Shown one piece after another: positions 48,753 through 63,011 of a stretch of 64,000 bases of DNA. Position numbers and translations under genes: made by a program. The stretch is from positions 310,001 through 374,000 of the forward strand of contig NZ_PGEZ01000001.1 of NCBI RefSeq assembly GCF_002797495.1, given 5' to 3'. Below the pieces are notes generated by a model. The model had not been told where the DNA came from, did not search any database, and was given only the letters and a program-made list of their open reading frames with translations. This stretch comes from Mumia flava (GTDB lineage: Bacteria > Actinomycetota > Actinomycetes > Propionibacteriales > Nocardioidaceae). The number at the start of each line of letters is the position of its first letter. Positions within the stretch are counted from its first letter, which is position 1.

Positions 48753-48778
48753 GTTTGCCGATCCCGCGATCCGGGTAC
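48753..48778 (+). promoter_or_regulatory. Candidate stress-sigma promoter of katE
   Basis: GTTT (48753-48756), 16-nt spacer, GGGTAC (48773-48778), 29 bp before the katE ATG. Identical form to the dps site; matches SigB/SigF GTTT-GGGTAT. Confidence 0.7.
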
Positions 48779-48807: not shown

Positions 48808-50946
48808 ATGCAGCCGGACGACGCGACCAGCCGACGGTCCACCGACGACATCGGCACCCCACCGCCCGCGCCACCGTCGCCGACGGGCGCAGAGCCCGGC
48901 GGTCGCGACACGCTGCAGCAGCAGGGGGAACGTCTGACGACGGCGCACGGCACTCCGCTGCCCGACACCGACCACTCGCTCAAGGTGGGTCCGCGGGGTC
49001 CGACGCTGCTCCAGGACCACCACCTGCGGGAGAAGATCACCCACTTCGACCACGAGCGCATCCCCGAACGTGTCGTGCACGCGCGTGGCGCGGCAGCGCA
49101 CGGCGTCTTCACCGGCTACGGCGCGGCGTCGGACTTCACCCGGGCCACGTTCCTGGAGAAGGACCGTGAGACTCCGGTCTTCGTCCGGTTCTCCACCGTG
49201 CTCGGGTCCCGCGGATCGGCCGACACCGTGCGCGACACCCGCGGCTTCGCGACGAAGTTCTACACCGACGAGGGGACCTTCGACCTCGTCGGCAACAACA
49301 TCCCGGTCTTCTTCATCCAGGACGGGATCAAGTTCCCCGACATCATCCACGCCGCGAAGCCGCACCCCGACCGCGAGATCCCCCAGGCGCAGAGCGCGCA
49401 CGACACGTTCTGGGACTTCGTGTCGCTCCACACCGAGGCGCAGCACCACACGATCTGGAACATGTCCGACCGCGGCATCCCCCGCTCGTACCGCATGATG
49501 GAGGGCTTCGGCGTCCACACCTTCCGGACGAGGACCGCCGAGGGGCACACGTCACTGGTGAAGTTCCACTGGAAGCCCACTCTCGGCGTGCACTCGCTGA
49601 CGTGGGAGGAGGCTCAGCTCCTCGGCGGGATCGACCCGGACTTCCACCGACGCGACCTCGCCGACGCCATCGACGCCGGCGCCTTCCCCTCCTGGGAGCT
49701 CGGGATCCAGGTGTTCCGTGACACACCGGACCAGAGCTTCGAGGACATCGACCTGCTGGATCCGACCAAGCTGGTCCCCGAGGAGCTCGCCCCGATCCAG
49801 CCGATCGGGCGGATGGTCCTGACGGCCAACCCCACGAACTACTTCGCCGAGACCGAGCAGGTGGCGTTCCACGTCGGTCATCTGCCGCCGGGCATCGACG
49901 CGACCGACGACCCGCTGATGCAGACACGGCTCTTCTCGTACGTCGACACCCAGCTCACGCGGCTCGGCGGGCCCAACTTCTCCCAGCTGCCGATCAACCG
50001 GCCGCGGACCCCGGTGAACGACATGCTCCGCGACGGGTTCGGTCAGCAGGCGGTGCACTCCGGCGTCGCGCCGTACCGCCCGAACTCCCTCGACGGAGGC
50101 TGCCCGGTGCAGGTCCCGCCGGCCGACGGCGGGCGCGAGGACATCCCCGTCACGGTCGAGGCCGGGCCGAAGATCCGCGCGGTGCCGACGTCGTTCTCCG
50201 ACCACTTCACCCAGCCGCGCCAGTTCTGGCTGAGCATGTCCGCCGTGGAGCAGCAGCACATCGTGGCGGCCTACAGCTTCGAGCTCCTGAAGTGCTCGGA
50301 CCGCACCGTCCAGGAACGACAGGTCGCGTGCCTCGCCCGGATCGACCCGTCGTTGTGCGCGCAGGTCGCGGACGCACTCGGCATGCCGGTCCCCGACCCG
50401 GACGATCCTCTCGCCGAGCCCGACCCCTCGCCGGCCCTCTCCCAGCTCGGTGACCGATGGCCGGTCGACGGGCGTCGCGTCGGCGTCGTGGTCGACGGGG
50501 ACGACGAGGAGGCGCAGAGCGTCGTCGCCGCGCTGAGCAGCGCGCAGGCGACCCCGCTCGTCATCGCGGCCCACGGCGGCCGCGTCGGTCGCCTCCCGGT
50601 CGCCCACGCGTTCTCGTCGGTGCGCTCCGTCGAGCTCGACGCCCTCATCGTCCTCGGCAGGCCCGCACCCGCAGCCGATGCCGACCCCGTCGGCGATGCC
50701 AAGGCGGGCGTCGGCAGCCGGGACGAGGATGCGATCGACCCGCGCGTGCTGCTGCTCGTCCAGGAGTGCTACCGCCACGCGAAGCCCCTCGCCGCACTCG
50801 GAGCCGGCATCGACGTGCTCGACGCAACCGGCTGCGAAGGCCCCGGCGTCGCCCGTGCGGACTCGGGGCCGGACGCGGTGGCCGCCACCACCGATGCCCT
50901 CGCCTCCCACCGCGTCTGGGACAGGTTCTCGAGCAGCGCGAACTGA
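48808..50946 (+). CDS. katE: Large-subunit (clade 2, HPII-type) monofunctional catalase
   Basis: Dismutates H2O2. The 712-residue length, an N-terminal extension and a C-terminal flavodoxin/class I amidotransferase-like domain (about 560-710) mark clade 2. Active site: His91 in [11 protein letters not shown], Asn in [11 protein letters not shown], haem-ligand Tyr378 in [14 protein letters not shown] 48808 follows CGAGGAG. Divergent from the LLM-class gene, behind a GTTT-N16-GGGTAC promoter; catalases of this kind are classical stress-sigma targets. Upstream of the ANTAR gene by 49 bp. Confidence 0.95.
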
Positions 50947-50995: not shown

Positions 50996-51748
50996 ATGGC
51001 GACCGAGCACGAGCTCGCAGCCCGCTTCGCGGCGCTCGGGCGCCAGCTCTTCCGCGAGGACGACGCGGTGCCGACCGTCGAGCGCGTCGTCCAGCTCGCG
51101 ATCGAGCTGGTCCCCGCCTGCGACGACTGCGGGTTGATGCTGCGTCGACGGCGTGCCACGGTCGTCACCGCCTCAGCCAGCTCGCCCCGCGGGGAGCGGT
51201 GCGACAACCTGCAGTACCAGCTCGACGAGGGCCCGTGCCTGGAGGCGATCTGGGAGGACGAGTCGTACCTGTCCGGTGACCTCGAGAACGATCCGCGGTG
51301 GCGACGCTGGGGTCCCGCTGCCGCCGCCGAGGGGATCCACTCGGTCCTCAGCATCCGCCTGGTCAGCGACGACGAGACGATCGGGTCGCTCAACCTGTAC
51401 GCGGAGGAGTACGACGCGTTCTCGGCCGACGACGTGGACACGGCGCTGATCTTCGCCTCCCACGCCACGCTCGCCATGAGCTCGGCGCGGCTGGTGACCG
51501 GGTTGCGGACCGCCATGCAGAGCCGCCACCTCATCGGGATCGCCCAAGGCATCCTCGTCGCCCGCTACGAGATCGACGTGGAGAGCGCGTTCGACGTCCT
51601 GCGCCGCTGCTCCAACGACACCAACATCCGCTTGAGCGACATCGCCGCCCAGGTCGTCGCAGCGGGCGCGCTCCCACCCGACCTGCTGGATCGCTCGCTC
51701 GCCCAGGAGACCGGGCGCCGCGGCCACGACTCGCCGGACCCGCCATGA
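50996..51748 (+). CDS. GAF-ANTAR regulator
   Basis: A 250-residue protein: GAF domain (about 15-150, with ERCDNLQYQLDEGPCLEAI), then an ANTAR RNA-binding domain (about 165-225, LRTAMQSRHLIGIAQGILVARYEIDVESAFDVLRRCSNDTNIRLSDIA). ANTAR proteins act by antitermination at paired hairpins in mRNA leaders. ATG 50996 has GGAACGGAG upstream. The stop overlaps the next gene's ATG by 4 bp, so it is coupled to the phosphatase/kinase/STAS protein. Confidence 0.9.
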   Translation: MATEHELAARFAALGRQLFREDDAVPTVERVVQLAIELVPACDDCGLMLRRRRATVVTASASSPRGERCDNLQYQLDEGPCLEAIWEDESYLSGDLENDPRWRRWGPAAAAEGIHSVLSIRLVSDDETIGSLNLYAEEYDAFSADDVDTALIFASHATLAMSSARLVTGLRTAMQSRHLIGIAQGILVARYEIDVESAFDVLRRCSNDTNIRLSDIAAQVVAAGALPPDLLDRSLAQETGRRGHDSPDPP

Positions 51749-53646
51749 GCGATCAGGACCGACACGACGAGCGCGCCCGGCCGGACGCCGCGACCATCGC
51801 CTTCGAGCAGAGTCCCGACCTGATCCTCGTGACCGAGGGCGAGGATCACCTCCTGGTCGGCTCCAACCTGTCGGCGGCGGCATTGCCTGGGCCCACCCCG
51901 ACGCCAGGCCGCCCGCTCCAGGAGACGGTCGGCGGATCCGCAGCGAGCGTCGGGCTGATCCGCCTCTTCGACGACACGATCGAGGGCGGTCACGCCTTCA
52001 CGTGGGAGACGCGACGCGTCGACGTCGGCGGGACGGCGGAGACGCCTCGGTTGTTCGACGTGTCGGCCTGCCGCTGGTCGGACCGTGACGCCGGGCGCGC
52101 CGGGGTGGTCGCCCGCGCGGTCCCGGTCGGTTCGCACGGCCGACGGGGCCAGCCCCAGGAGATCCGCCGCGAGCGGCGACCGCACCATCTGGCCGGGGAC
52201 GCAGACCTTCGCACCGCGGTGCACGACGAGGTCCTGCCCGACGAGCTGCCGCTCGTACCAGGCGTCGACGTCGCCGCCGGCTACGTCTTCGCGGGAGCGG
52301 AGATCCCGGTGAGGGGCGACTGGTTCGATGCCGTGCCGCGTGCCGACGGCACCGTCGCGCTCGTCATCGGCGACGTCGTCGGCCGCGGGGTCTCGGCATC
52401 GGTGACGGCATGTCGTCTCCGCGCCGCATCGGCGGCCTCTCTGCTCGAGGGCGCCCCGCCGGGCGACGTCCTGGAGCGGATCGACCGCTTCGCGTCGACG
52501 AGCCCGACCGCGATCGGCGCACGGATGGCGGTCGTGGTCGTCGATCCCCGTGACGGCCGCCTCGAGTACGCCACCGCGGGGCACCCGGACCCAGTCGTGG
52601 TGACGTCGGAGGCTCAGGTGCGGCCGCTCACCGAGGCGCGCTCGCCGGTCCTCGGGCGCTCCCGAGCGCACACGACGGCCACCGACGCCCTGGCGCCCGG
52701 CGACGTCCTGATCCTCTGCACCGACGGGATCCTCGACCGACAGCACGTGGGGCCGGCCCGCTCCGTGGAGGAGCTGGCGCAGCTGCTGGCCCCCCACGTC
52801 TCCGGCCGCGCCCCCGACGACCGAGCACGTCTGGTCGACAGGGTCGCGCGGCTCGGACTCGAGACCTTCGGCCGTGGTTCCGTGCCCGTCGACGACCTCG
52901 CGCTGCTCGTCGCTGCGCGCGCGCCGCACCCACCCGGGCTCGACATCGGCGTCGGAGAAGCGGCCGAGACCCCGGTGCACGCCCGTACGGCCTTGGCGCG
53001 GTGGCTCGAGTCGTTCCAGGTGCGCGCGGTCGACCAGATCGCCGTCCTGCACGCCGTCCACGAGCTCGTCGTCAACGCCCTCGAGCACGCCTATCCGTCG
53101 GGCGACGGGACGGTCCGGGTCACGGCCGAGGTGGCGCCCGACGGCACCCTCACCTGCCGCGTGGCGGATCACGGGCGGTGGGCGGCCCGCGCGGGCGACG
53201 GAGGCGGGCGCGGGCTCGCGATGGCCAGCGGGCTGGTCGACGAGCTCGTGATCGACCGCACCGCCGACGGGACCACCGCCACGGTCCGCCACCGTCTGAC
53301 ACGTCCCGCTCACCTCTTCCTCGCGGCGACCGACGACCGGCGAGGAGAGAACGCCGACATGCCCTTCACGGCCGCGATCGAGGATCGTCGGATCCGCCTC
53401 GTCGGCGCCGTCGACGAGTCCGCCGCGGACGAGCTCGGCGTGATCCTGCGGGCGCACGCCGGGAACGCCGACCCGGTCACGATCGACCTCACGGCTGTCG
53501 ACCTGCTCGGCAGCGCTGCCCTCCGACTGATCGACGACGCCCTGGTCACCGGTCCCGAGCTCCGGGTGGTCGCCCCCGCCGGCTCGGTCGCCGAGCAGGT
53601 GCTGGACGCGAGCGGCCTGCCCTGGCGACGGCCGGACTCGGTCTAG
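51745..53646 (+). CDS. PAS-SpoIIE phosphatase-RsbW kinase-STAS fusion (Rv1364c-like sigma-factor regulator)
   Basis: A 633-residue partner-switching module. PAS-like N-terminus (about 18-110); SpoIIE/PP2C phosphatase (about 157-392, metal residues in RGDWFDA, GDVVGRG near 209, CTDGILDR near 326); GHKL kinase like RsbW (about 400-530, N-box HELVVNALEHA, G1 VADHGRWAAR, GRGLAMA); STAS antagonist (about 539-633) with candidate phospho-Ser590 in DLLGSAAL. Architecture equals M. tuberculosis Rv1364c. It overlaps the ANTAR gene (ATGA) and ends tail to tail with the sigma gene, overlapping it by 4 bp, so its most likely client is that sigma factor. Confidence 0.9.
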   Translation: MSDQDRHDERARPDAATIAFEQSPDLILVTEGEDHLLVGSNLSAAALPGPTPTPGRPLQETVGGSAASVGLIRLFDDTIEGGHAFTWETRRVDVGGTAETPRLFDVSACRWSDRDAGRAGVVARAVPVGSHGRRGQPQEIRRERRPHHLAGDADLRTAVHDEVLPDELPLVPGVDVAAGYVFAGAEIPVRGDWFDAVPRADGTVALVIGDVVGRGVSASVTACRLRAASAASLLEGAPPGDVLERIDRFASTSPTAIGARMAVVVVDPRDGRLEYATAGHPDPVVVTSEAQVRPLTEARSPVLGRSRAHTTATDALAPGDVLILCTDGILDRQHVGPARSVEELAQLLAPHVSGRAPDDRARLVDRVARLGLETFGRGSVPVDDLALLVAARAPHPPGLDIGVGEAAETPVHARTALARWLESFQVRAVDQIAVLHAVHELVVNALEHAYPSGDGTVRVTAEVAPDGTLTCRVADHGRWAARAGDGGGRGLAMASGLVDELVIDRTADGTTATVRHRLTRPAHLFLAATDDRRGENADMPFTAAIEDRRIRLVGAVDESAADELGVILRAHAGNADPVTIDLTAVDLLGSAALRLIDDALVTGPELRVVAPAGSVAEQVLDASGLPWRRPDSV

Positions 53647-54446
53647 GCCACGCCCAGCTCGTCGGCCCCGGCGCCCTGAGGTTCGCTCCGCGCGCCGTGC
53701 TCGGTCGCCGACGCGGCCACCTCGGGATCCGCGACGTCGTCGATCTCGTCCCGGAGCTGCGTCAGGATGCGGTTGAGCAGCCGGGACACCTGCATCTGCG
53801 TGATCCCGAGGTCCTGACCGATCTCGCGCTGCGTCCGGTCCTCGAAGAAGCGGAGGAACAGGATGCGGCGGTCCCGCGAGGACAGACGTCGCACGACGGG
53901 GGCGAGCACGGCGCGCGCCTCGCCCGCGTCGGTTCCGTCCTCCCCCTTGATCACCTCGAGCAGAGCACCCTCCCCGTCGCCCTCGACCGGTTGGTCCAGC
54001 GATACGCCGTGGAAGCATCCGCTCGCGGCCATGCACTCGTGGTACTCGTCCTCGTCGATGCCCACGTCCTCGACCACCTCCGCGCGGGTCGGCTCCCGAC
54101 CACGCTCGGCCCGGATCCGTTCGACCGCGCGGTTGACGGCCCACTGTCGCTCCTGGATCCGCCGCGGCGGGCGGACCAGCCAGCCGTCGTCACGGAAGTG
54201 CTTGCGCAGCTCCCCCCGGATCGTCGGCACGGCGAAGGCGCCGAATCCCACGCCTCGCTGCGGGTCGAAGCGCGAAGCCGCCTTGATCAGCGCCTCGTAG
54301 GCGACCTGCACGAGATCATCGACGTCGATGCCCCGATCGCGGAAGCGCAGGGCGACGGAGTGCGCCAGCGGGATGTGCTCGAGAACCAGCTTCTCGACTG
54401 CGGCACCGCCGGACGCGGCGGACGGAATGGTCGACGTGCGAGACAT
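53643..54446 (-). CDS. RNA polymerase sigma factor, SigB/SigF/SigG subfamily
   Basis: A 267-residue group 3 sigma-70 factor: region 2 (LVLEHIPLAHSVALRFRDRGIDVDDLVQVAYEALIKAASRFDPQRGVGFGAFAVPTIRGELRKHFRD), region 3 (ERIRAERGREPTRAEVVEDVGI), region 4 (RILFLRFFEDRTQREIGQDLGITQMQVSRLLNRILTQLR). It would recognise GTTT/GGGTAT-type promoters and be held by an RsbW-type kinase such as the convergent fusion protein. Divergent from an FAD reductase. Confidence 0.93.
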   Translation of the reverse strand: MSRTSTIPSAASGGAAVEKLVLEHIPLAHSVALRFRDRGIDVDDLVQVAYEALIKAASRFDPQRGVGFGAFAVPTIRGELRKHFRDDGWLVRPPRRIQERQWAVNRAVERIRAERGREPTRAEVVEDVGIDEDEYHECMAASGCFHGVSLDQPVEGDGEGALLEVIKGEDGTDAGEARAVLAPVVRRLSSRDRRILFLRFFEDRTQREIGQDLGITQMQVSRLLNRILTQLRDEIDDVADPEVAASATEHGARSEPQGAGADELGVA

Positions 54447-54575
54447 ACGACGCTCCCAAGGAAACGGTCGTGCGGCTCGCCGGCTTCTTCAGCGAAGGGT
54501 GCTACTCCTGCGACCCTAGCGGCATCACCGTCCGAACTCCACACTCGGCCTCCGCACCACCTGCCCGCCACCGGC

Positions 54576-54601
54576 GCATGAGCGGCGCTCGCGGCGGGTA
54601 C
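54576..54601 (+). promoter_or_regulatory. Candidate stress-sigma promoter of the FAD reductase
   Basis: CGCATG (GCAT at 54576-54579), 16-nt spacer, GGGTAC (54596-54601), 51 bp before the GTG. Within the 206-bp divergent gap between sigma factor and reductase. Confidence 0.5.
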
Positions 54602-54652
54602 GGGGCCTGTGACGTGGCACGACGCGGTCACGCCGACCCGAGGAGGTGGCGC

Positions 54653-55837
54653 GTGCGGAGCTCGACGTCGGCCGGTCTCCTCGTCGTCGGAGGCGGTCCC
54701 GCGGGCCACGCCGCCGCGCGGTCGTACCGTGAGTCGGGCGGCGACGGACGCGTCCTGGTGGTCTCCCAGGACGCGTACCCGCCCTACGCGCGGCCGCCCC
54801 TGACGAAGGAGCATCTCCGCGGAGAGACCGCCTCCGACGAGCTCGCGCTCTCCGGACCGGACTTCTACACCGACCACCGCATCGAGCTCACCCTGCGGCG
54901 GACGGTGACCGCGATCCACCGTGATCGGGACCGGGCCACGATGCACGGCGGCGAGACGGTCGACTTCCGGTCCTGCGTGGTGGCGACCGGCAGCCGGCCC
55001 GTCAGCCTGCCGGTCCCCGGGGCGCACGATCCACGCGTCCTGGAGGTCCGGTCCCTCGACGACGGGATCGCCCTGCGCCAGGCCGCGGAGTCGGCCGGGT
55101 CCGCGGTCGTGATCGGGTCGGGGTTCATCGGGTGCGAGGCCGCGGCGTCGCTGTGCGCCCGGGGGGTCACCACGACGCTGATCACGATGGAGCGGGCGCC
55201 GCAGCGCGCGCGGCTCGGCGACGAGGTGGCCGCCAGGATCGCCGGTTGGCTCGACGACGCGGGCGTACGCCTCGTCACCAGCGCGACGGTCCGCTCGATC
55301 GTCGAGGCGCGGACGGTCTGCACCTCGGCCGGCGCGTACTCGGGCGACATGGTCCTGCTCGCCACCGGGGTCGCGCCCGACAACGCGCTCGCGGCCGCCG
55401 GACGGATCGCGTGCGCCGACGGCCGGGTCCTCGCGGACTCACGGATGCGGACCAGCCGGGCGAACGTGCTGGCCGCCGGCGACGTCGCCCTCGCGACGAA
55501 CCACGCGGCAGGGCGGCGGCTCGCCGTGGAGCACTGGGGCGACGCCGTCAGGATGGGCGAGGTCGCCGGAGCCAACGCCGCCGGCGTGCAGGACCGCTGG
55601 GCGCAGGCGCCGGGATTCTGGAGCGGGATCGGTGATCGGGTCCTGAAGTACGCCGCCTGGGGCGACGGCTACGACGCCGTCCTCCTGAGCGACCACGGCG
55701 AGGGCGCCTTCACCGCATGGTACGGCGCCGGCGGTCGGGTGGTCGGGGTCCTGACCCACCGGCACGACCCGGACTACGAGCGTGGTCGCACGCTGGTCGA
55801 GTCCGGCGCCGACTGGAGCGACGTGGCGGCCGCGTGA
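54653..55837 (+). CDS. FAD-dependent pyridine nucleotide-disulfide-type (ferredoxin) reductase
   Basis: A 394-residue NAD(P)H:FAD oxidoreductase: FAD motif LLVVGGGPAGHAAARSY (9-25), PPYARPPLTKEHL, NAD motif VVIGSGFIGCEAAASL, second FAD motif LAAGDVA. It belongs to the ferredoxin/rubredoxin reductase group, with no redox-active CxxC. GTG 54653 has a perfect AGGAGGT. Electron acceptor unknown. Next to the sigma gene and behind a candidate stress promoter. Convergent with the glycosyltransferase, 7 bp apart. Confidence 0.9.
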   Translation: MRSSTSAGLLVVGGGPAGHAAARSYRESGGDGRVLVVSQDAYPPYARPPLTKEHLRGETASDELALSGPDFYTDHRIELTLRRTVTAIHRDRDRATMHGGETVDFRSCVVATGSRPVSLPVPGAHDPRVLEVRSLDDGIALRQAAESAGSAVVIGSGFIGCEAAASLCARGVTTTLITMERAPQRARLGDEVAARIAGWLDDAGVRLVTSATVRSIVEARTVCTSAGAYSGDMVLLATGVAPDNALAAAGRIACADGRVLADSRMRTSRANVLAAGDVALATNHAAGRRLAVEHWGDAVRMGEVAGANAAGVQDRWAQAPGFWSGIGDRVLKYAAWGDGYDAVLLSDHGEGAFTAWYGAGGRVVGVLTHRHDPDYERGRTLVESGADWSDVAAA

Positions 55838-55844
55838 GCCGTCC

Positions 55845-56552
55845 TCAGCCCGCTTCGGGCGCCGCGGCGAGGTCGCGGAGATAGCCGGCGAAGCCACCGT
55901 TCGTGCGCCCGCGCAGCCGCGCCGACGTCCGCACCCGGCTCCCCTGGTTCGTCCACCGACACCCGGCCGCGATCGCCGAGCGGACGAACACGACGTCCTC
56001 GTGCTCGTCCAAGGCGCTGAAGCCACCGGCGAGACGGTGCGCAGCCAGGGTGAAGCCGAGGTTCGCGCCGTGGACGTGCAGCCCGTCGCGGTGACGGTCG
56101 TCCCAGGAGCGCGCCAGCGCCGGGTCGATCTCGTCGGGATCGGGGCGGACCCGGCCGACCACCAGCGCGAACCCGTCCGATGCCAGGACGTGCTGACGGA
56201 CGAGCCATCCCGGCCCGACCAGGCAGTCGGCGTCGGTCATCGCGACCCACACCCGATCGTGCTCGCGCCCCCGGGCCAGCCGCGCCACCCGGTCGACGCC
56301 GGCCTCGCGCGCCACGCCGACGCACCCGGCACCGGAGATGACCGTGTCGACGTCGTGCCGTGCGGCCACGGCCGCCGACCCGTCGCGACAGCGATCGAGC
56401 ACCACCGTGATGCGGGCGCCGATCCCCGTCGCCTGGTGCAGCCTGATCACCGCCTGCTCGATCGCCGTCAGGCACCGTCCGAGCCGCTGCTCCTCGTCGT
56501 GCACGGGAACCACGACGTGCACGACCTCCGGCGCGGCGGCGTCGAGGCTCAC
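55845..56552 (-). CDS. Family 2 glycosyltransferase
   Basis: A 235-residue GT-A glycosyltransferase: VHVVVPVHDEEQRLGRCLTAI at the start, metal motif TDAD in VWVAMTDADCLV, and a late GANLGFTLAAHRLAGGF with EHEDVVF. GTG 56552 overlaps the stop of the PIG-L fusion by 4 bp. No membrane anchor. Last gene of the dps operon. Donor and acceptor unknown. Confidence 0.87.
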   Translation of the reverse strand: MSLDAAAPEVVHVVVPVHDEEQRLGRCLTAIEQAVIRLHQATGIGARITVVLDRCRDGSAAVAARHDVDTVISGAGCVGVAREAGVDRVARLARGREHDRVWVAMTDADCLVGPGWLVRQHVLASDGFALVVGRVRPDPDEIDPALARSWDDRHRDGLHVHGANLGFTLAAHRLAGGFSALDEHEDVVFVRSAIAAGCRWTNQGSRVRTSARLRGRTNGGFAGYLRDLAAAPEAG

Positions 56553-57877
56553 GCGTGCGGCTCCGGCCAGGCGGCATCCGCCCCGAGGACGACGATCTCG
56601 ACGTCGCGGTCGACGTACGACGCATGCTCGACCCACCCCCGCCGGTCCCGTACCGCCGCGTGGACCGCCGGCCCGTCCATCGGCCACCCGTCCACCTCGT
56701 GGCGCCAGTGGCACAGCACGATCGTCCCCCGCGGGGACAGGGACGACGTGATCCGGTCGAGGAGTCCGTCGAGGCCGGCCGGGCTGAGGAAGTACCCGAT
56801 CTCCGACAGCACCACCAGATCGAACCTGCCGTCGACCCACTCCCGAGGGACGCGCGCCTGGATCACCTCCACCTCCGTGCCCGCGAGCCGCTCGCGCGCC
56901 GCGCGCACGGCAGCCTCGCTCGAGTCGACGGCAACGACCTGGTCGCACCGCTCCGCCAGCGCGACGGTCAGCTCACCGATCGAGCACCCGACCTCGAGGG
57001 CCCGCCCGAACCGCGGCCACGGAAGGGCCGCCAGGAGCAGATCGCGCTTGCGGCGTTCGTACCACCGGTCCCGTACGCCCCAGGGGTCCGCGGCGCGTGC
57101 GTGCAACGTCTCCAGCGCGTCGTCGTGGGTGTCCTCGGAGACGAAGTACTCCGACTCCCCACGGAAGTGCTCCAGCACCTCGCGGGTGAGCAGCGCCTCG
57201 TCGCCCGGCTCCGCCGACAGGGGCTGGATCTGGCTGCGATGGCTCCGGATCGCGGCCGACCGTCGCTGCTGCGCCTCGTCGGACAGCGCGAAGCGGCACA
57301 TCCGCTCCCAGGGCGCGGACTCGGGACGAGCCCAGTGCCACCACCAGATCGGGAACTCCAGCAAGGTGGCGTCCGTACGGGCAGCGGCCACTCCTGCCGC
57401 GCGCCCGGCAGCCTCGTGGTCGCTGTGCCCGTCGTGGCGCCACGGTGCGAGCACGAGCGTCCGGCGCCCGTCACCGATCACCTCGACCACGCGCTCGACC
57501 AGCGTCGACTCCGCGAGGGCGACCTCGGCGTCGGCAAGTCCGAGGAAGGTGCACGACGATCCCGGGGCGAGAACGCCGACGGCCTCCTCCAGCTCGGCCA
57601 GACGCCGCCGCGCGAGCCCGATCGGCCCGAGCGTCGGGGATCGCGGGTGGCTGCGCTCACCGGCGGTGGCCACCAGCACCTCGACCTCGAGCCCGACGGT
57701 GTGCGCGGTCGCGATCAGCCCGCCGGCGCCGAGCGTCTCGTCGTCAGGGTGGGCGGCGAGCACGACCAGTCGGTCGAACCGGTCCAGCTCGAGCTCGGGG
57801 CACGCCCGCGCGGCCGGGTGCCCGCGCCACGCCGAGGCGGGCGTACCGGGCTGGTCGTGGGTGAACGACGCGGTCAT
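56549..57877 (-). CDS. PIG-L deacetylase/class I methyltransferase fusion
   Basis: A 442-residue fusion. N-terminal PIG-L/LmbE zinc deacetylase (about 30-245): AAHPDDETLGAGG with His43, Asp45 and Asp46, and zinc His154 in HDGHSDHEAAG. C-terminal Rossmann methyltransferase (about 255-440): ALEVGCSIGELTVALA (SAM loop 293-308), VVAVDSSEAAV, and a NodS-like end. A sugar would be de-N-acetylated and then methylated. Overlaps both neighbours by 4 bp; part of the dps-ACAD-PIG-L/MT-GT2 operon. Confidence 0.9.
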   Translation of the reverse strand: MTASFTHDQPGTPASAWRGHPAARACPELELDRFDRLVVLAAHPDDETLGAGGLIATAHTVGLEVEVLVATAGERSHPRSPTLGPIGLARRRLAELEEAVGVLAPGSSCTFLGLADAEVALAESTLVERVVEVIGDGRRTLVLAPWRHDGHSDHEAAGRAAGVAAARTDATLLEFPIWWWHWARPESAPWERMCRFALSDEAQQRRSAAIRSHRSQIQPLSAEPGDEALLTREVLEHFRGESEYFVSEDTHDDALETLHARAADPWGVRDRWYERRKRDLLLAALPWPRFGRALEVGCSIGELTVALAERCDQVVAVDSSEAAVRAARERLAGTEVEVIQARVPREWVDGRFDLVVLSEIGYFLSPAGLDGLLDRITSSLSPRGTIVLCHWRHEVDGWPMDGPAVHAAVRDRRGWVEHASYVDRDVEIVVLGADAAWPEPHA

Positions 57878-58917
57878 CGCGAGCCCCCGTGCACGAGGTG
57901 GCGGCCGAGGGCCGCGGCGTCCCGTTCGGCGTGGTGCTGACGCAGGTACACCCGCAGGTCCGAGACCCGGGCGACGTGCTCGGGCTCGCTGACGAGCGGA
58001 CCCGGTCCGAGCGCGTGGTCGACGCTGCGGAGGACCCGCTCGGCGGAGTCGGCGACCACCTGACGCACCCGCAGGGCGAGGACGGCTCCGGCGTCGCCCC
58101 GGGCCTCACCGGCGTCGACGAGGCGAGCTGCACGGCTCAGCGCGCTCGCCGCCGCGTACAGCGCCGCGTCGGTCGCGCCCAGGTGGGCGAGCCCGATCTG
58201 GTCGGGCTCGCGCTTCGCGGCCGCGTCGGTCAGGCGCCGGACGAGCCCGACCGCTCCCCCGTACCAGACGGCGGCGACGCCGATGCCGCCCCACGCGAAG
58301 CCGTCCCGCTCGAGGTACCAGCCGGGACCACCGACCGGCACCGCCTCCGCCTCCGCGAAGCGCACCGACGTGCTGCGGATCCGGCGCAGACCGTGCGGCA
58401 CCCAGGGCTCGTCCGCCGTCTGGATGCCGGGTTGGTCGAGCGCCACCGCGAACAGACCACGCCGCTCCTCGTCGATCCAGGCGGTGACCAGCGCATGGGT
58501 GACGTCGTCGGCGAGCGAGCACCACGGCTTCGTCCCGCCGAGGGCCCAGCGTCCGGGCGCGCCGCCGGAGGGCAGGGGCCGCGCGACCACGCGCGTGCCG
58601 GGACCCTCGGCGGCCCACACCCCCAGCACGGCGTCCGCCGGAACCGTCTCCTCCCCCGCCTGAGCCTCGGCGAGGATGGCCAACGCGTCCAGGTGCGGCT
58701 CCACCGCACGGGCGACGGTGAGATCACAGGCTCCCAGCGACGCGAGGCACGACCACCGCGCGGCGGTGTCGACGCCCGGCAGAGCACAGTCCTGGCCGAG
58801 CTCACGGCCGAGGCGCAGGGCACCCTGCACGTCGCCGGCGACACGCGCGCAGCGCGTGGCGACCTCGTCGAGCCACGGGTCCGGCTCCGCCGTGACCCCG
58901 ACCCTGACACCCGCCAC
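57874..58917 (-). CDS. Acyl-CoA dehydrogenase-family protein, atypical short
   Basis: A 347-residue acyl-CoA dehydrogenase-like flavoprotein: DLTVARAVEPHLDALAILAEA, the middle beta domain with LGGTKPWCSLADDVTHALVTA (substrate/FAD-binding), helical C-terminus ending in LRVYLRQHHAERDAAALGRH. It is shorter than the usual ~380 and the catalytic Glu cannot be placed, so the reaction may differ. Start is GTG 58917. Lies 28 bp after dps and overlaps the PIG-L fusion. Confidence 0.82.
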   Translation of the reverse strand: MAGVRVGVTAEPDPWLDEVATRCARVAGDVQGALRLGRELGQDCALPGVDTAARWSCLASLGACDLTVARAVEPHLDALAILAEAQAGEETVPADAVLGVWAAEGPGTRVVARPLPSGGAPGRWALGGTKPWCSLADDVTHALVTAWIDEERRGLFAVALDQPGIQTADEPWVPHGLRRIRSTSVRFAEAEAVPVGGPGWYLERDGFAWGGIGVAAVWYGGAVGLVRRLTDAAAKREPDQIGLAHLGATDAALYAAASALSRAARLVDAGEARGDAGAVLALRVRQVVADSAERVLRSVDHALGPGPLVSEPEHVARVSDLRVYLRQHHAERDAAALGRHLVHGGSR

Positions 58918-58945
58918 GCGCTGCGTCCGCCCGTCCGTGACCGCG

Positions 58946-59497
58946 TCAGCCGTCGGCGCGAGCGTCGTCGGCCGCGGCGGACTCGGAGTCCGCGCCCGCG
59001 GTGGACAGCCGGCCCCGCATGTCCTCGAGGTGCGCCCGCACGAACCACTGGAACTTCTCGAGCTCCGCGGTGTGCGCGATGATCATGTCCTGCGTCACCA
59101 GGTCGAGGTCGTCGGTCAGCGCCATCACCTCGCGGTTCGCCTCGATCACGCCGTTGTAGACGAGGTCGAGCGCGCCGAGGTGAGCGAGCACGGTGTCGCG
59201 GCCGACCGAGTAGTCGTCCCAGGTGCGGTCCGCGATGATCGCGCCCGGCGTGCCCTTCGGCGACGCACCCAGCGTCGCGATCCGCTCGGCGACCTCGTCG
59301 GCGTACCCGCGGACCAGGTCGACCTGGGGGTCGATCATCTCGTGCACGGCGATGAAGTGCGGCCCGACGACGTTCCAGTGCACGTGCTTGAGGGTGAGGT
59401 GGAGATCGTTGTACGCGCTCAGCCGCCCCTGCAGTGCGGCCACGACCTGCTCGGCATCGTCCGTCGACAGGCCCGGAACGGTGTACGACACGGTCAT
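58946..59497 (-). CDS. dps: Dps-family ferritin-like protein
   Basis: Iron-storing, DNA-protecting mini-ferritin. The 183-residue product keeps the ferroxidase ligands with E. coli Dps spacing: His40, His52, Asp56, Asp67, Glu71 (KHVHWNVVGPHFIAVHEMID, YADEVAERI). An acidic/Ala tail follows. Preceded at 59534-59559 by GTTT-N16-GGGTAC. First gene of an operon that continues into the ACAD, PIG-L/MT and GT2 genes. Confidence 0.95.
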   Translation of the reverse strand: MTVSYTVPGLSTDDAEQVVAALQGRLSAYNDLHLTLKHVHWNVVGPHFIAVHEMIDPQVDLVRGYADEVAERIATLGASPKGTPGAIIADRTWDDYSVGRDTVLAHLGALDLVYNGVIEANREVMALTDDLDLVTQDMIIAHTAELEKFQWFVRAHLEDMRGRLSTAGADSESAAADDARADG

Positions 59498-59533: not shown

Positions 59534-59559
59534 GTACCCTAAGACGGGTCGCGCCAAAC
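59534..59559 (-). promoter_or_regulatory. Candidate stress-sigma promoter of the dps operon
   Basis: Minus strand: GTTT (59559-59556), 16-nt spacer, GGGTAC (59539-59534), 36 bp before the dps ATG. Same sequence and spacing as at katE. Confidence 0.7.
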
Positions 59560-59586: not shown

Positions 59587-62037
59587 TCAGCCGCCTTCCG
59601 GAGCGCCACCCGGTCCCGCGGCGTGAGGTTTCCGTACCCGCTCGAGGGCGTCGGCCCAGTCCGGCCCGCGCCAGTAGTGCCCGTGCTTGAGCAGGCCGGT
59701 CACCGCACCGTCGTTCATCTCCTGGTCGTACGGCGTGGGGTCGAGCACCCGCCAGTCGTCGCCGCACTCGTGGCGCCCGGTCGAGGGCACGTGCACGTCC
59801 GGCCGCGCCCCGTCCAGGGCCCCCGGCAGGTGACCGGAGGTCGTGCTGGGACCCTCCGCCCCGTGCCGCCACGACAGCACGGGGCCGGCCAGGGGATCGG
59901 TCTCGCGGTAGAGGTTGATCCAGGCCCCGCCGAGCACGTCGTGCACGTCGCCGACCGCGTCGAGGTTCACGTACTCGGGGAAGGCCCGCGGGAAGATCAC
60001 CTGCAGCTGCGACCCGAACGTGAGCAGCGAGATCCCGTCGCGCTCCTCACGGTGCAGCGCCGCGAGCGCACCGAACGCGATCAGGCTGCCCTGGCTGTGT
60101 CCGCAGACGACGACGTGGGGAGCCGGCTGAGCACGGCGGTACCAGCGCAGCCGGTTGCGCAGATCGGTCACGCACCGCATCGAGTACGGGCGGGGCGCGT
60201 ACGGGTGCACCGCGTGCGGCCAGAACGCGATCACGTCCCAGACGACATTGAGACTGCGGCGCGTCCCCTGCTCGGAGACCGCCGACCGTCCCGTGGCGAG
60301 CAGCGCCGCCGCCGCCGTGATCAGCGCCCACGCCCCGATCAGGGCCACGACGTTGGAGACCCAGATGACCGCGGCGGAGCCGGTCACGTACTTCGGCTGG
60401 CTCAGCAGGTCCAGCGGGCCCGGCAGCGACCGGCAGGTCCCGAAATCCTGGCCGCCCTGGCAGCCGGCCAGCTCGAGCGCGAGCGCGATCCCCAGCAGCG
60501 TCCCGAAGAGGACGAAGACGGTGCCGCCGACCGGGATCAGGTTCTTGAGGCGCGCGGTGCCGATCGCGCGCGCGACCGTCTCCAACCAGCCCGCCGAGAG
60601 CCGCGGGCCGCCGTCGGCCGCGGCGAACATCCCGGCGGCGCGTGCACGGTCCGCTCGGCGTCGGGCCATCATCCAGATGCCGGCCCCGGTGGCGAGCAGC
60701 GCGAACAGCAGGAGGTTCAGGCCCCACGCGTACGAGACCCGGTCGAGCATCGGCGTCGTCCCGACATCGACCTCGATCCCCTCGGCCGTGGTGCGCGTCC
60801 GGACCGACAGATCGAGCAGCGAGGAGACGCCGGTCGCCGCCGCCGCCGAGAGCCCGACCCCGAGGAACGCGGCGATGCTCGCCACGAGGTAGGCGGTCAT
60901 CCCGAGGGCGTACGGACGGAACGCACGGTGGCCCGGGGTCGTCCCCCAGGAGCCGCGCACGCTGAGGACCAGCGCGAGGTTGGCGAACCCGAGGAGGATC
61001 AGCGCTGCCAACCCGGCCCACAGCAGGCCGTTCGCGACGTCGTCGAACATCACCGGCCGCTCGGCGGCCGCCCGGTCGACGTCGCTCGCTCCCCACGCCG
61101 ACAGGGCGAGGAGGACGACGGCGACCGCGATCGCACCGCGGGCGATCCAGACCATCGTCACGTGCCACCACAGCCGGAACGCCGCGATCCGGCCGGACAG
61201 CGGCAGGCTCGCGGTCCCTTCCGGGTCGCCGAGCAGCGTCGTCAGCACGACGACGAGGACCAGGGCGATCGTCGACGCGAGCAGGACCGGGTCGCGGTCC
61301 ACCCACCCGTCGGGGTGGACCGCCCACGCACCCATGCTCGCGACCGTGAGCACCGCGGCCGCGAGGTGCAGGTTGCGCAGGACCGGTGCGTCGGTGTCGC
61401 CCCGGTAGAACCGGTCGCGGGCCAGCGGGGTCCGAGGCTCCCCGGGCTCGACCGCGTCGACGTAGCGCCCCTCGGTCCGCTTGCGCGGCTCGGCGTCGTC
61501 CACCACGCCGTATCCGCGGCCCAGCCGGTAGAGCACGTACGAGACCAGCGCCGTCGCGACGATCGCGAGACCGACCGTCCACGTCTCGGGGAAGGACCCG
61601 AGCTGGCGCGAGCCGGGAGCCCACCGCCAGGCCAGCAGGTCGATCAGGATCAGCCCGGCGGCGAACGTCAGCAGCAGCGTCAGCATCAGGGCGACGAAGC
61701 GCAGCAGAGCACCGCACAGCAGGTGCCAGATCCGCGCGAGCAGGCCCGGTCCGGCGGCGGGCAGCATGAACTGCGCGGCGTTGACCATGCCGAACGGCAG
61801 CAGCACCATCCACAGCGCCTGGAGCCAGCTGCCGGAGGTGAAGCGGCCCCAGTGGTAGGCCTCCACGACGTGGCCGTCCGCGCCCCGCAGCTCGTGACCC
61901 GACGAGTCGACCGCGCGGAAGTAGCGGGAGTCGGCGTCGCCTGCGACCTGCGTGCAGTACGGCCGGTCGAGGATCGACTCCGGCGGCGCACCGCTCACCC
62001 CGTGCACCCGCAGCTCGACCCAGTCCGCACCGGACAT
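59587..62037 (-). CDS. Large multi-spanning membrane protein with split alpha/beta hydrolase domain
   Basis: An 816-residue protein. The N-terminal strand and loop (WVELRVHGVSGAPPES, His12) look like the oxyanion part of a lipase; then about ten transmembrane helices and loops; at the C-terminus the nucleophile elbow CGHSQGS with Ser648 and later LLKHGHYW. A hydrolase core seems interrupted by a membrane domain. ATG 62037 has GGAGGT; a GTG 15 bp upstream is less likely. No characterised relative known to me. Divergent from the LigD polymerase gene. Confidence 0.8.
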   Translation of the reverse strand: MSGADWVELRVHGVSGAPPESILDRPYCTQVAGDADSRYFRAVDSSGHELRGADGHVVEAYHWGRFTSGSWLQALWMVLLPFGMVNAAQFMLPAAGPGLLARIWHLLCGALLRFVALMLTLLLTFAAGLILIDLLAWRWAPGSRQLGSFPETWTVGLAIVATALVSYVLYRLGRGYGVVDDAEPRKRTEGRYVDAVEPGEPRTPLARDRFYRGDTDAPVLRNLHLAAAVLTVASMGAWAVHPDGWVDRDPVLLASTIALVLVVVLTTLLGDPEGTASLPLSGRIAAFRLWWHVTMVWIARGAIAVAVVLLALSAWGASDVDRAAAERPVMFDDVANGLLWAGLAALILLGFANLALVLSVRGSWGTTPGHRAFRPYALGMTAYLVASIAAFLGVGLSAAAATGVSSLLDLSVRTRTTAEGIEVDVGTTPMLDRVSYAWGLNLLLFALLATGAGIWMMARRRADRARAAGMFAAADGGPRLSAGWLETVARAIGTARLKNLIPVGGTVFVLFGTLLGIALALELAGCQGGQDFGTCRSLPGPLDLLSQPKYVTGSAAVIWVSNVVALIGAWALITAAAALLATGRSAVSEQGTRRSLNVVWDVIAFWPHAVHPYAPRPYSMRCVTDLRNRLRWYRRAQPAPHVVVCGHSQGSLIAFGALAALHREERDGISLLTFGSQLQVIFPRAFPEYVNLDAVGDVHDVLGGAWINLYRETDPLAGPVLSWRHGAEGPSTTSGHLPGALDGARPDVHVPSTGRHECGDDWRVLDPTPYDQEMNDGAVTGLLKHGHYWRGPDWADALERVRKPHAAGPGGAPEGG

Positions 62038-62123
62038 CCGCGCCACCTCCACCGAGCAGGCTAGGGCGCCGCGGGGTGCGCTGCCGTGCTGCTTGCAGCC
62101 CCGCGCGGTGGGATGGTGGTGCG

Positions 62124-63011
62124 ATGGCGGGAAACGTGCTGGAGATCGACGACCGGACGGTCAAGGTCTCCAACCTCGACAAGGTCCTCTATCCGTCCGA
62201 CGGCACCACGAAGTACGACGTCATCCAGTACGTGCTCGCGGTCGCCGACCCGCTGCTCGCCCAGCTCGCCGACCGCCCCTGCACCCGCAAGCGCTGGCCC
62301 GACGGCGTCGACGCGGACAGCTTCTTCGAGAAGAACGCGCCCCGCGGGACGCCGGAGTGGGTCCGGGTCGTCGAGGTGGCGACGCCCGGGTCGTCGCGGG
62401 GCCGGGACTCCGCCGACTTCCCGGTGCTCGCGCACCGGGCGGACCTGGTCTGGGTGGCCAACCTCGCGGCGCTGGAGCTGCACACGCCGCAGTGGACCGT
62501 CGGGCCGCGCGGCGGCATCCACGACGCCGACCGGCTCGTGATCGACCTCGACCCGGGCGCACCGGCCGGGCTGGCCGAGGCCGTCGAGGTCGCGCACCTC
62601 GTCCGCGACCGCCTCACCGACGACGGCTGGACGGTCGTGCCCGTGACCAGCGGGAGCAAGGGCGTCCACCTGTACGCCGGCCGGGGCGCGACCGCCCCGT
62701 CCGACACGCTGCGCGACTACGCCCACGGCATCGCCGACGAGCTCGCCGCTGCGCACCCGAAGCGCGTGCTGTCGGTGATGCGCAAGGCGGAGCGGCGCGG
62801 GAAGGTCTTCCTCGACTGGAGCCAGAACGTCGCGGCGAAGACGACCGTCACTCCGTACTCGCTGCGTGGGCGCGAGCGACCCTGGGTGGCGGCGCCGCGG
62901 GTCTGGGAGGAGCTGGACGATCCCTCGGAGGTGACGCAGGTCCTGGCGCACGAGATGCCCGGCCGGCTGGAGACCTACGGCGACCCGATGGCCGCCCTTC
63001 GCGCTGTGTGA
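62124..63011 (+). CDS. LigD-type polymerase/primase domain protein (stand-alone)
   Basis: A 295-residue archaeo-eukaryotic primase-type polymerase domain of LigD: KVSNLDKVLYP at the start, VIDLDPG with two metal Asp residues, TSGSKGVHLYA, and KVFLDWSQN with the third acidic residue. Fills gaps with ribonucleotides in NHEJ. No ligase or Ku gene in the window; PE domain gene lies at 44914. ATG 62124 is preceded by GGGATGG. Its neighbour 62 bp downstream converges. Confidence 0.93.
   Translation: MAGNVLEIDDRTVKVSNLDKVLYPSDGTTKYDVIQYVLAVADPLLAQLADRPCTRKRWPDGVDADSFFEKNAPRGTPEWVRVVEVATPGSSRGRDSADFPVLAHRADLVWVANLAALELHTPQWTVGPRGGIHDADRLVIDLDPGAPAGLAEAVEVAHLVRDRLTDDGWTVVPVTSGSKGVHLYAGRGATAPSDTLRDYAHGIADELAAAHPKRVLSVMRKAERRGKVFLDWSQNVAAKTTVTPYSLRGRERPWVAAPRVWEELDDPSEVTQVLAHEMPGRLETYGDPMAALRAV

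Follow-up and report, generated by a model that had tools for sequence, protein, structure and literature searches.

What could be made by an operon in which dps is followed by genes for a flavoenzyme-like protein, a deacetylase fused to a methyltransferase, and a glycosyltransferase? The question is raised by a locus of Mumia flava (Nocardioidaceae) in a 64,000-nucleotide stretch of contig NZ_PGEZ01000001.1 (positions 310,001 to 374,000; hereafter the window). Four intact genes share the minus strand there: dps, a gene for a protein with the acyl-CoA dehydrogenase (ACAD) fold, a PIG-L/methyltransferase (PIGL-MT) fusion gene and a gene for a GT2 glycosyltransferase, separated by gaps of 28, -4 and -4 bp (Table 1). 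This arrangement had been proposed from the letters of the sequence (the original prediction), and gene coordinates together with domain matches confirm it. The genes that follow dps, here called the module, are an uncharacterised biosynthetic set, often found beside stress genes, for which an amino-sugar pathway is the best-supported reading. We consider it probable, if only modestly so, that the module is a stress-linked pathway building a small amino-sugar glycoside as part of the general stress response. In the open-licence literature, no description of the module as such was found.

Recurrence of the module across genomes

The main actinobacterial set consists of the best 80 of 539 confirmed loci, picked by the ACAD-like gene alone, and 76 of these 80 carry the order ACAD-PIGL-MT-GT2. 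Because so many loci chosen by one gene hold the others in the same order, the set recurs far beyond chance, and on sequence grounds we take ACAD, PIG-L, methyltransferase and GT2 to form a real module; the co-occurrence of the three genes expected from the original prediction is thereby borne out across genomes. The four exceptions comprise three loci without GT2 nearby and one without PIG-L and GT2, two of the four ending at or near a contig end. PIG-L and methyltransferase lie in one reading frame in 78/79 loci. Gene spacings are mostly -7 or -4 bp (ACAD to PIGL-MT) and -4 bp (to GT2), apart from a few gaps that run to tens or hundreds of bases, as counted from starts chosen by nearness to those of the window. 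Gene distances correlate (Mantel r 0.773, 0.655 and 0.708; 58 of the 80 loci usable), a correlation to which common host descent also contributes.

Among 396 sampled Actinomycetota genomes, 49 (the window's own included) contained an ACAD-like match at E ≤ 1e-20; besides that of the window, 24 matches were at ~5e-42 or better and 24 were weaker, most of the latter from one family. Of the 24 stronger loci (L125-L148, with flanks of ~1.5 kb), 21 have a methyltransferase near the ACAD-like gene and 19 have PIG-L there. At least seven gene orders occur, some of them visible in part only (for example GT2-ACAD-PIGL-MT, MT-GT2-ACAD, GT2-PIGL-ACAD-MT, MT-PIGL-ACAD and ACAD-MT-PIGL). Since order changes while proximity stays, these reordered but still neighbouring genes would argue for selection on the set. 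A more distant ACAD-like group from one Actinomycetota family (L149-L153, E ~1e-30) has an adjoining NodS-like methyltransferase in 5/5 loci, and tblastn found PIG-L in 0/5 of these short loci.

The module is patchy within Nocardioidaceae. The fusion protein has a single full-length match in the M. flava genome, and none of five same-genus genomes yielded a strong fusion-protein match or an ACAD-like match at 1e-12. Three of these five keep the genes that flank the dps-module block in M. flava, one for an 821-aa protein and one of LigD type; within the stretches of 16-17 kb examined in these three, neither dps nor the module genes turned up. Because the flanking genes stay in the relatives while the block was not found there, it was either gained in M. 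flava or lost by its relatives. The 821-aa protein (encoded within 59587-63011) matches no Pfam or NCBIfam model and is conserved in 5/5 same-genus genomes; its gene, which is divergent from that for the LigD-type polymerase, bounds the variable block on one side.

Fusion-protein matches also occur in 99 of 72,556 plasmid records, in 49 over at least 80% of the length. Fifteen of these records were inspected (13 of them annotated), and the module occurs beyond Actinomycetota, in Proteobacteria and Deinococcus. In Deinococcus wulumuqiensis (L171, 7484-8836), a TnpB-type gene on the opposite strand lies between the ACAD-like and PIG-L genes.

Enzyme families and the putative pathway

The fusion protein consists of a PIG-L deacetylase domain (residues 38-161) and a NodS-like methyltransferase domain dependent on S-adenosylmethionine (SAM; residues ~260-442). 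The first half belongs to the PIG-L family, with a PF02585 score over the cut-off and intact HPDD and HxDH motifs. The motif residues H43, D45, D46, D153 and H154, which we presume to have the roles usual in PIG-L motifs, are invariant in 32 sequences (the window and 31 of 67 loci, a subset selected by us). Its profile matches diacetylchitobiose deacetylase (8bgn, E = 2.5e-16), BshB and MshB and, with weaker scores, antibiotic deacetylases and a hydratase; its best NCBIfam match is BshB1, at 52.3 bits under an equivalog cut-off of 182.5. The profile of the second half matches 4isc (E = 2.5e-63) and the NodS structure 3ofj (E = 1e-27), with P265 and W266, aligned to the DPW motif of 3ofj, invariant in 32/32 sequences. 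Its score for the NodS Pfam family PF05401 is above the 24-bit cut-off, and that for the NodS NCBIfam equivalog (52 bits) is below the cut-off of 300, so that this half is best described as a clear homologue of NodS and not its equivalog. Because neither the NodS nor the BshB1 equivalog cut-off is reached, what the two halves show towards these enzymes is likeness, not membership.

Likeness to BshB1, the catalase and Dps neighbours, and the match of MshB and BshB structures to the PIG-L profile would also suit a redox cofactor of the mycothiol or bacillithiol kind, for which a glycosyltransferase and PIG-L make a glucosaminide carrier that is then tailored. We regard such a product as very unlikely: the BshB1 score falls far short of its cut-off, the annotation of the 13 regions lists no cysteine ligase (no search aimed at one was made), and the thiol pathways are known to employ GT4-family transferases rather than GT2.

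Membership of the glycosyltransferase in GT2 is supported by its PF00535 match (cut-off 23.3 bits), a GT-A fold and a TDAD motif, and D107, D109, E185 and D186 are invariant in 44 sequences (the window and 43 of 65 loci, again our own selection). Its structure model (predicted local distance difference test, pLDDT, 94.1) shows a GT-A domain and none of the long additional helices that membrane spans would require. Foldseek neighbours include WrtF, AvpGT, TarS, TarP, ArnC and glucosyl-3-phosphoglycerate synthase, and the best solved relatives of its profile are ArnC, a lipid-phosphate sugar transferase, followed by PcManGT and dolichol-phosphate mannose synthase. Such relatives would be expected if the module modified a cell-envelope glycoconjugate (a glycolipid, a teichoic acid or a lipid-carrier-linked sugar) and the linkage to Dps reflected shared stress control only. 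Yet the absence of long membrane-type helices from the modelled 235-aa protein speaks against this, as do the PIG-L relatives found, whose substrates we take to be mostly small glycosides. Rough clustering of open reading frames (ORFs) also brought up no further family in more than 16 of the 80 loci, although these families were not named and no flippase or polymerase was searched for. We therefore hold an envelope role to be rather unlikely.

The third enzyme had been named an acyl-CoA dehydrogenase in the original prediction, and this label has some support as to kinship and probably fails as to function. Foldseek searches with the AlphaFold model (pLDDT 94.8) ranked DszC first, KijD3 second, SCAD third, a nitrososynthase 12th and DnmZ 15th, at 16-21% identity and with TM-scores that do not separate monooxygenases from ACADs. 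For a profile of 13 diverse members, the top match among solved structures is TdsC (E = 4.4e-14), closely followed by ACAD-named chains. SfnB is the NCBIfam family matched by most of these members (10/13, best E 2.9e-12); where given, their scores stay far below the 430.9-bit cut-off of that family, and the window protein itself matches no NCBIfam model. Resemblance to monooxygenases of the DszC/SfnB/KijD3 type is thus as strong as that to dehydrogenases. For the window protein, whose sole Pfam ACAD match lies below the cut-off (24 versus 33.3 bits), 'acyl-CoA dehydrogenase' is for that reason a fold label.

We take the ACAD catalytic base to stand at the position of MCAD Glu376 or at a 254-type position, and placed the former by counting from a conserved Asp and a helix break in the model, not by superposition. 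In 55 sequences (the window and 54 of 73 length-filtered loci, a subset of our choosing), this position is occupied by His 42 times, by Gln five times, by Glu four times and by other residues in the remaining 4, and it is Glu in 0/13 sequences of a wider alignment; the alternative position is Gly (G210) in 55/55. The protein thus appears to lack the conserved catalytic glutamate of ACADs, with some doubt kept alive by E331, which lies three residues past the base position and is conserved in 49/55. With moderate confidence, we think the protein more likely to be a flavin-dependent oxygenase or oxidase than a classical acyl-CoA dehydrogenase.

Were the gene to encode a true acyl-CoA or acyl-ACP dehydrogenase after all, it could provide the unsaturated acyl group with which an amino sugar is acylated. 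It is annotated as a dehydrogenase in plasmid records, and E331 could be a displaced catalytic base. The nearest solved match of a 55-sequence profile is an ACAD (7xp7), 50/55 members match Pfam Acyl-CoA_dh_M at E ≤ 1e-3, and the Deinococcus homologue exceeds three Pfam ACAD cut-offs. Foldseek and profile searches, moreover, mix monooxygenases and true ACADs at similar scores. We nevertheless give this alternative a low probability, given the scarcity of Glu at the base position, the invariant G210, the sub-threshold Pfam score of the window protein and a module that includes no acyltransferase gene. In two Deinococcus records (L039, 7698-9947; L171, 5104-7476), the gene annotated as acyl-CoA dehydrogenase encodes ~750-790 aa; the D. 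radiophilus protein has an extra N-terminal region of ~380 aa, without match to Pfam families or solved sequences.

Taken together, these families suggest a small amino-sugar glycoside as the product, and a sequence of steps can be proposed. The soluble GT2 would transfer a sugar onto an acceptor, with N-acetylhexosamines such as N-acetylglucosamine (GlcNAc) the likeliest choice of sugar; PIG-L would take off the acetyl group; the NodS-like domain, which is fused to PIG-L in nearly all 80 actinobacterial loci, would N-methylate the freed amine; and oxidation of the product would fall to the ACAD-fold flavoenzyme, for which the role of a flavin-dependent N- or C-monooxygenase is plausible. The sugar, the acceptor, the order of steps and the N-oxidation are the conjectural parts of this scheme, and the product may serve as a solute or antioxidant beside Dps, catalase and trehalose. 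An amino-sugar or glycoconjugate pathway had been part of the original prediction: the enzyme families fit it, PIG-L resembling GlcNAc de-N-acetylases and the methyltransferase resembling NodS, and its product remains a proposal. More tentatively, as a possibility to which we give less weight than to the pathway itself, the product may be an N-methylated, flavin-oxidised glucosaminide, perhaps on trehalose or a similar sugar, representing an undescribed class of stress metabolite common to Actinomycetota, Proteobacteria and Deinococcus and made with Dps, catalase and trehalose against drying or peroxide.

The same genes might instead serve to degrade or mend a glycoside damaged by stress. Detoxification is a further role of PIG-L deacetylases, with mycothiol conjugate amidase as an example, and the extra Deinococcus region looks glycosidase-like by eye, its lack of Pfam and solved-sequence matches notwithstanding. 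The coupling with both a glycosyltransferase and a SAM methyltransferase points to synthesis, however, and we consider breakdown extremely unlikely.

Stress-type promoter, Dps and other neighbours

The window contains two perfect matches to a SigF-type promoter pattern (GTTT-N15-17-GGGTA close to the first start codon), where 0.01 are expected, and the 4.4-Mb genome contains six, compared to two for a reversed control pattern. One match precedes dps, so that the stress-type promoter foreseen ahead of the operon is, by motif and by window and genome counts, of SigF type, and the operon is probably transcribed from it. Four of the six genomic sites precede an ATG-initiated ORF of at least 80 codons within 60 nt and the other two do not; the ORFs encode catalase, Dps (Table 1), a 170-aa protein (53 nt) and a 90-aa protein (59 nt). 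This last protein is rich in lysine and arginine, and its site (G000:C1:1591727-1591751, L205) marks a possible further regulon member.

Genes for a GAF-ANTAR regulator, a SpoIIE/HATPase protein and a sigma factor are grouped between the catalase gene and the operon. The SpoIIE/HATPase protein, whose gene start was chosen to stay in frame only, is possibly a partner-switching regulator. The sigma factor has sigma-70 regions 2, 3 and 4 and a TIGR02980 score just under the 234.35 cut-off. The operon is therefore surrounded by stress genes and has a likely sigma circuit of its own, in which the adjacent sigma factor may read the SigF-type promoters of both dps and catalase.

Table 1 Features of the Mumia flava window around the dps-module operon (positions are those of the window).
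Feature	Positions	Strand	Details
SigF-type promoter	48753-48777	+	second perfect match; 30 nt before catalase ATG
Long catalase	48808-50946	+	PF00199 542 bits, PF18011 78 bits
GAF-ANTAR regulator	51002-51748	+	PF13185, PF03861
SpoIIE-type phosphatase with HATPase domain	51802-53646	+	PF07228 118 bits, PF13581 65 bits
SigB/SigF/SigG-family sigma factor	53643-54446	-	1.4 kb beyond operon end; TIGR02980 223.6 bits
FAD-dependent pyridine-nucleotide reductase	54575-55837	+	convergent with operon; PF07992 167 bits, Reductase_C 27 bits
GT2 glycosyltransferase	55845-56552	-	235 aa, GTG start; PF00535 31.9 bits
PIG-L/methyltransferase fusion	56549-57877	-	442 aa; PF02585 83 bits, PF05401 (NodS) 47.3 bits
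ACAD-fold flavoenzyme-like protein	57874-58917	-	347 aa, GTG start; Acyl-CoA_dh_M 24 bits, cut-off 33.3
dps	58946-59497	-	first operon gene, 183 aa; Ferritin PF00210 E = 4.5e-24
SigF-type promoter (GTTT-N16-GGGTA)	59535-59559	-	37 nt before dps ATG

The linkage to Dps, from which a protective or redox metabolite had been surmised, recurs in several arrangements and is optional. The first operon gene encodes a protein scoring 97 bits against NCBIfam Dps PRK09448, under the 114-bit cut-off. Dps as a core member of the module was rejected, a Dps-family gene being present in 12/80 loci; in seven of these 12, all from Cryobacterium, it lies directly upstream on the same strand. We also searched 22 genomes of the window's family, partly chosen after Dps had appeared beside the module and uncorrected for relatedness. 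In this sample, a close Dps (E < 1e-60) occurs in 6/8 module-bearing genomes (G009, G010, G021, G024, G025, G027, G032 and G034, with weak matches in G032) versus 3/14 genomes without the module. Dps is near the module in only three of the eight (G009, ~4 kb away, G021 and G034); it lies hundreds of kb from it in G025 and G027 and on another contig in G010. The module-less genomes with a close Dps are G012, G033 and G031, in the last of which the Dps gene stands behind a lone methyltransferase match and an ACAD-like gene was not found. A close Dps is missing from all five same-genus genomes, as is an ACAD-like match, and G065 has a weak Dps match upstream of the ACAD-like gene in a short locus without PIG-L or methyltransferase. 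Dps is thus a recurrent, optional neighbour, its link to the module real but loose, and its repeated and differently arranged occurrence suggests a stress function in common rather than the inheritance of a single operon. An amino-sugar pathway is untouched by this weakened link, because it does not rest on Dps.

Stress genes stand beside many copies of the module in other phyla. Comamonas endophytica and C. antarctica share the order otsA-ACAD-PIGL-MT-GT2-otsB and also carry a ferritin-like gene there. In Acinetobacter ursingii the genes run catalase, iron-containing redox enzyme, module, MFS gene and then, on the opposite strand, otsA/otsB; A. soli has a trehalose-6-phosphate synthase gene near the module. 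In Paracoccus, GT2-ACAD-PIGL-MT lies beside catalase and treZ, and in Sulfitobacter the module is followed by catalase. Ku, LigD and RpoH are found near the module in Bradyrhizobium, CsbD at two Pandoraea loci and a ferritin-like gene in Kitasatospora.

Published expression data bear on the same association. The Acinetobacter loci that we inspected in sequence carry the same four genes as ACICU_02432-02435 of A. baumannii, entries known to us from a table in which PIG-L goes by what we take to be its older name, LmbE. That table (Table 2 of PMC5660220) lists genes whose levels change over 10-fold in two A. baumannii mutants dependent on colistin; 33 of these genes fall. It includes ACICU_02432 (glycosyltransferase), 02433 (SAM-dependent methyltransferase), 02434 (LmbE) and 02435 (putative acyl-CoA dehydrogenase-related protein) under one operon letter, down 31-62-fold together with trehalose-6-phosphate synthase/phosphatase (otsA/otsB) and catalase. 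As tabulated, these values show that the set is co-expressed with stress genes in a single distant host; they do not show what it does. A GT2 of Mycobacterium smegmatis, MSMEG_1097, is given as SigF-dependent (PMC4694148), with an intensity ratio of 1.5 in the microarray appendix table of a spray-drying study (PMC5445863) and a value of -6.5 in a zinc study (PMC7174638); it might be the GT2 of this module.

Several observations weigh against a stress-linked pathway of this kind. A SigF-type promoter as a feature of all relatives was rejected by upstream-region counts: the pattern is perfect in 1/79 upstream regions (background ~0.1%) and present with at most one mismatch in 4/79 (background ~2%), and it was not found in a 14-kb stretch of genome G009. 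Among the 80 actinobacterial loci the signal from stress-gene neighbours is weak, with catalase in 6, treZ in 3 and GH15 in 4 (a number that includes the locus of the query itself) and zero counts for otsA, otsB, Ku, LigD, CsbD, two ferritin-like queries and an iron redox enzyme query. Control genes gave ABC-ATPase 14, SDR 5, RND 1, MFS 0 and LysR 0, and these counts, which have no random background, are no proof of enrichment. Islands in Roseomonas and two in Deinococcus have no recognised stress neighbours, some relatives have no GT2 or PIG-L nearby, and the donor specificity of GT2 cannot be read from its sequence.

A looser promoter test found the SigF-type pattern in 9/109 loci, with 0.95 expected, after 11 of the 120 listed loci had been dropped as duplicates. 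These included L133 (genome G024), whose twin was outside the set and which has a perfect match overlapping its estimated start. Presumed mycobacterial loci showed no consistent promoter upstream.

Comparison with known systems

A compact enzyme set that occurs in three phyla, with its genes together despite changed order and often with stress neighbours, points to an unrecognised stress metabolite. The A. baumannii operon ACICU_02432-02435 resembles the module in having the four activities side by side and co-expressed with otsA/otsB and catalase; unlike the M. flava operon, it is tabulated as four separate genes with no dps among them (PMC5660220).

Among single enzymes, KijD3, the RubN8-type nitrososynthase, DnmZ and DszC/SfnB share the ACAD fold with the module flavoenzyme and are among its best structural or profile matches. 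N-oxygenases of the KijD3/DnmZ type and DszC/SfnB are not known to have the ACAD Glu. The module protein (347 aa) differs in being shorter than KijD3/DszC-type enzymes, and its identity to the structural matches is 16-21%.

Mycothiol (MshA/MshB) and bacillithiol (BshA/BshB) are made by a glycosyltransferase followed by a PIG-L de-N-acetylase, which yields a stress-linked glucosaminide. The module has the same pairing, but with GT2 in place of GT4, with a methyltransferase and a flavoenzyme where the thiol pathways have a ligase step, and with scores under the family cut-offs.

The closest parallel in chemistry would be the core of Nod factor synthesis, in which NodC is a GT2 enzyme, NodB a deacetylase and NodS an N-methyltransferase that methylates the deacetylated end sugar. 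The module shares with it GT2, de-N-acetylation and NodS-like N-methylation. In contrast, its deacetylase is PIG-L, whereas NodB has a polysaccharide-deacetylase fold, and it has no NodA-type acyltransferase, an added flavoenzyme and a place beside stress genes. Our analysis thus gives a concrete chemical hypothesis for the locus, namely that a glucosaminide may undergo Nod-factor-like N-methylation and flavin-dependent oxidation.

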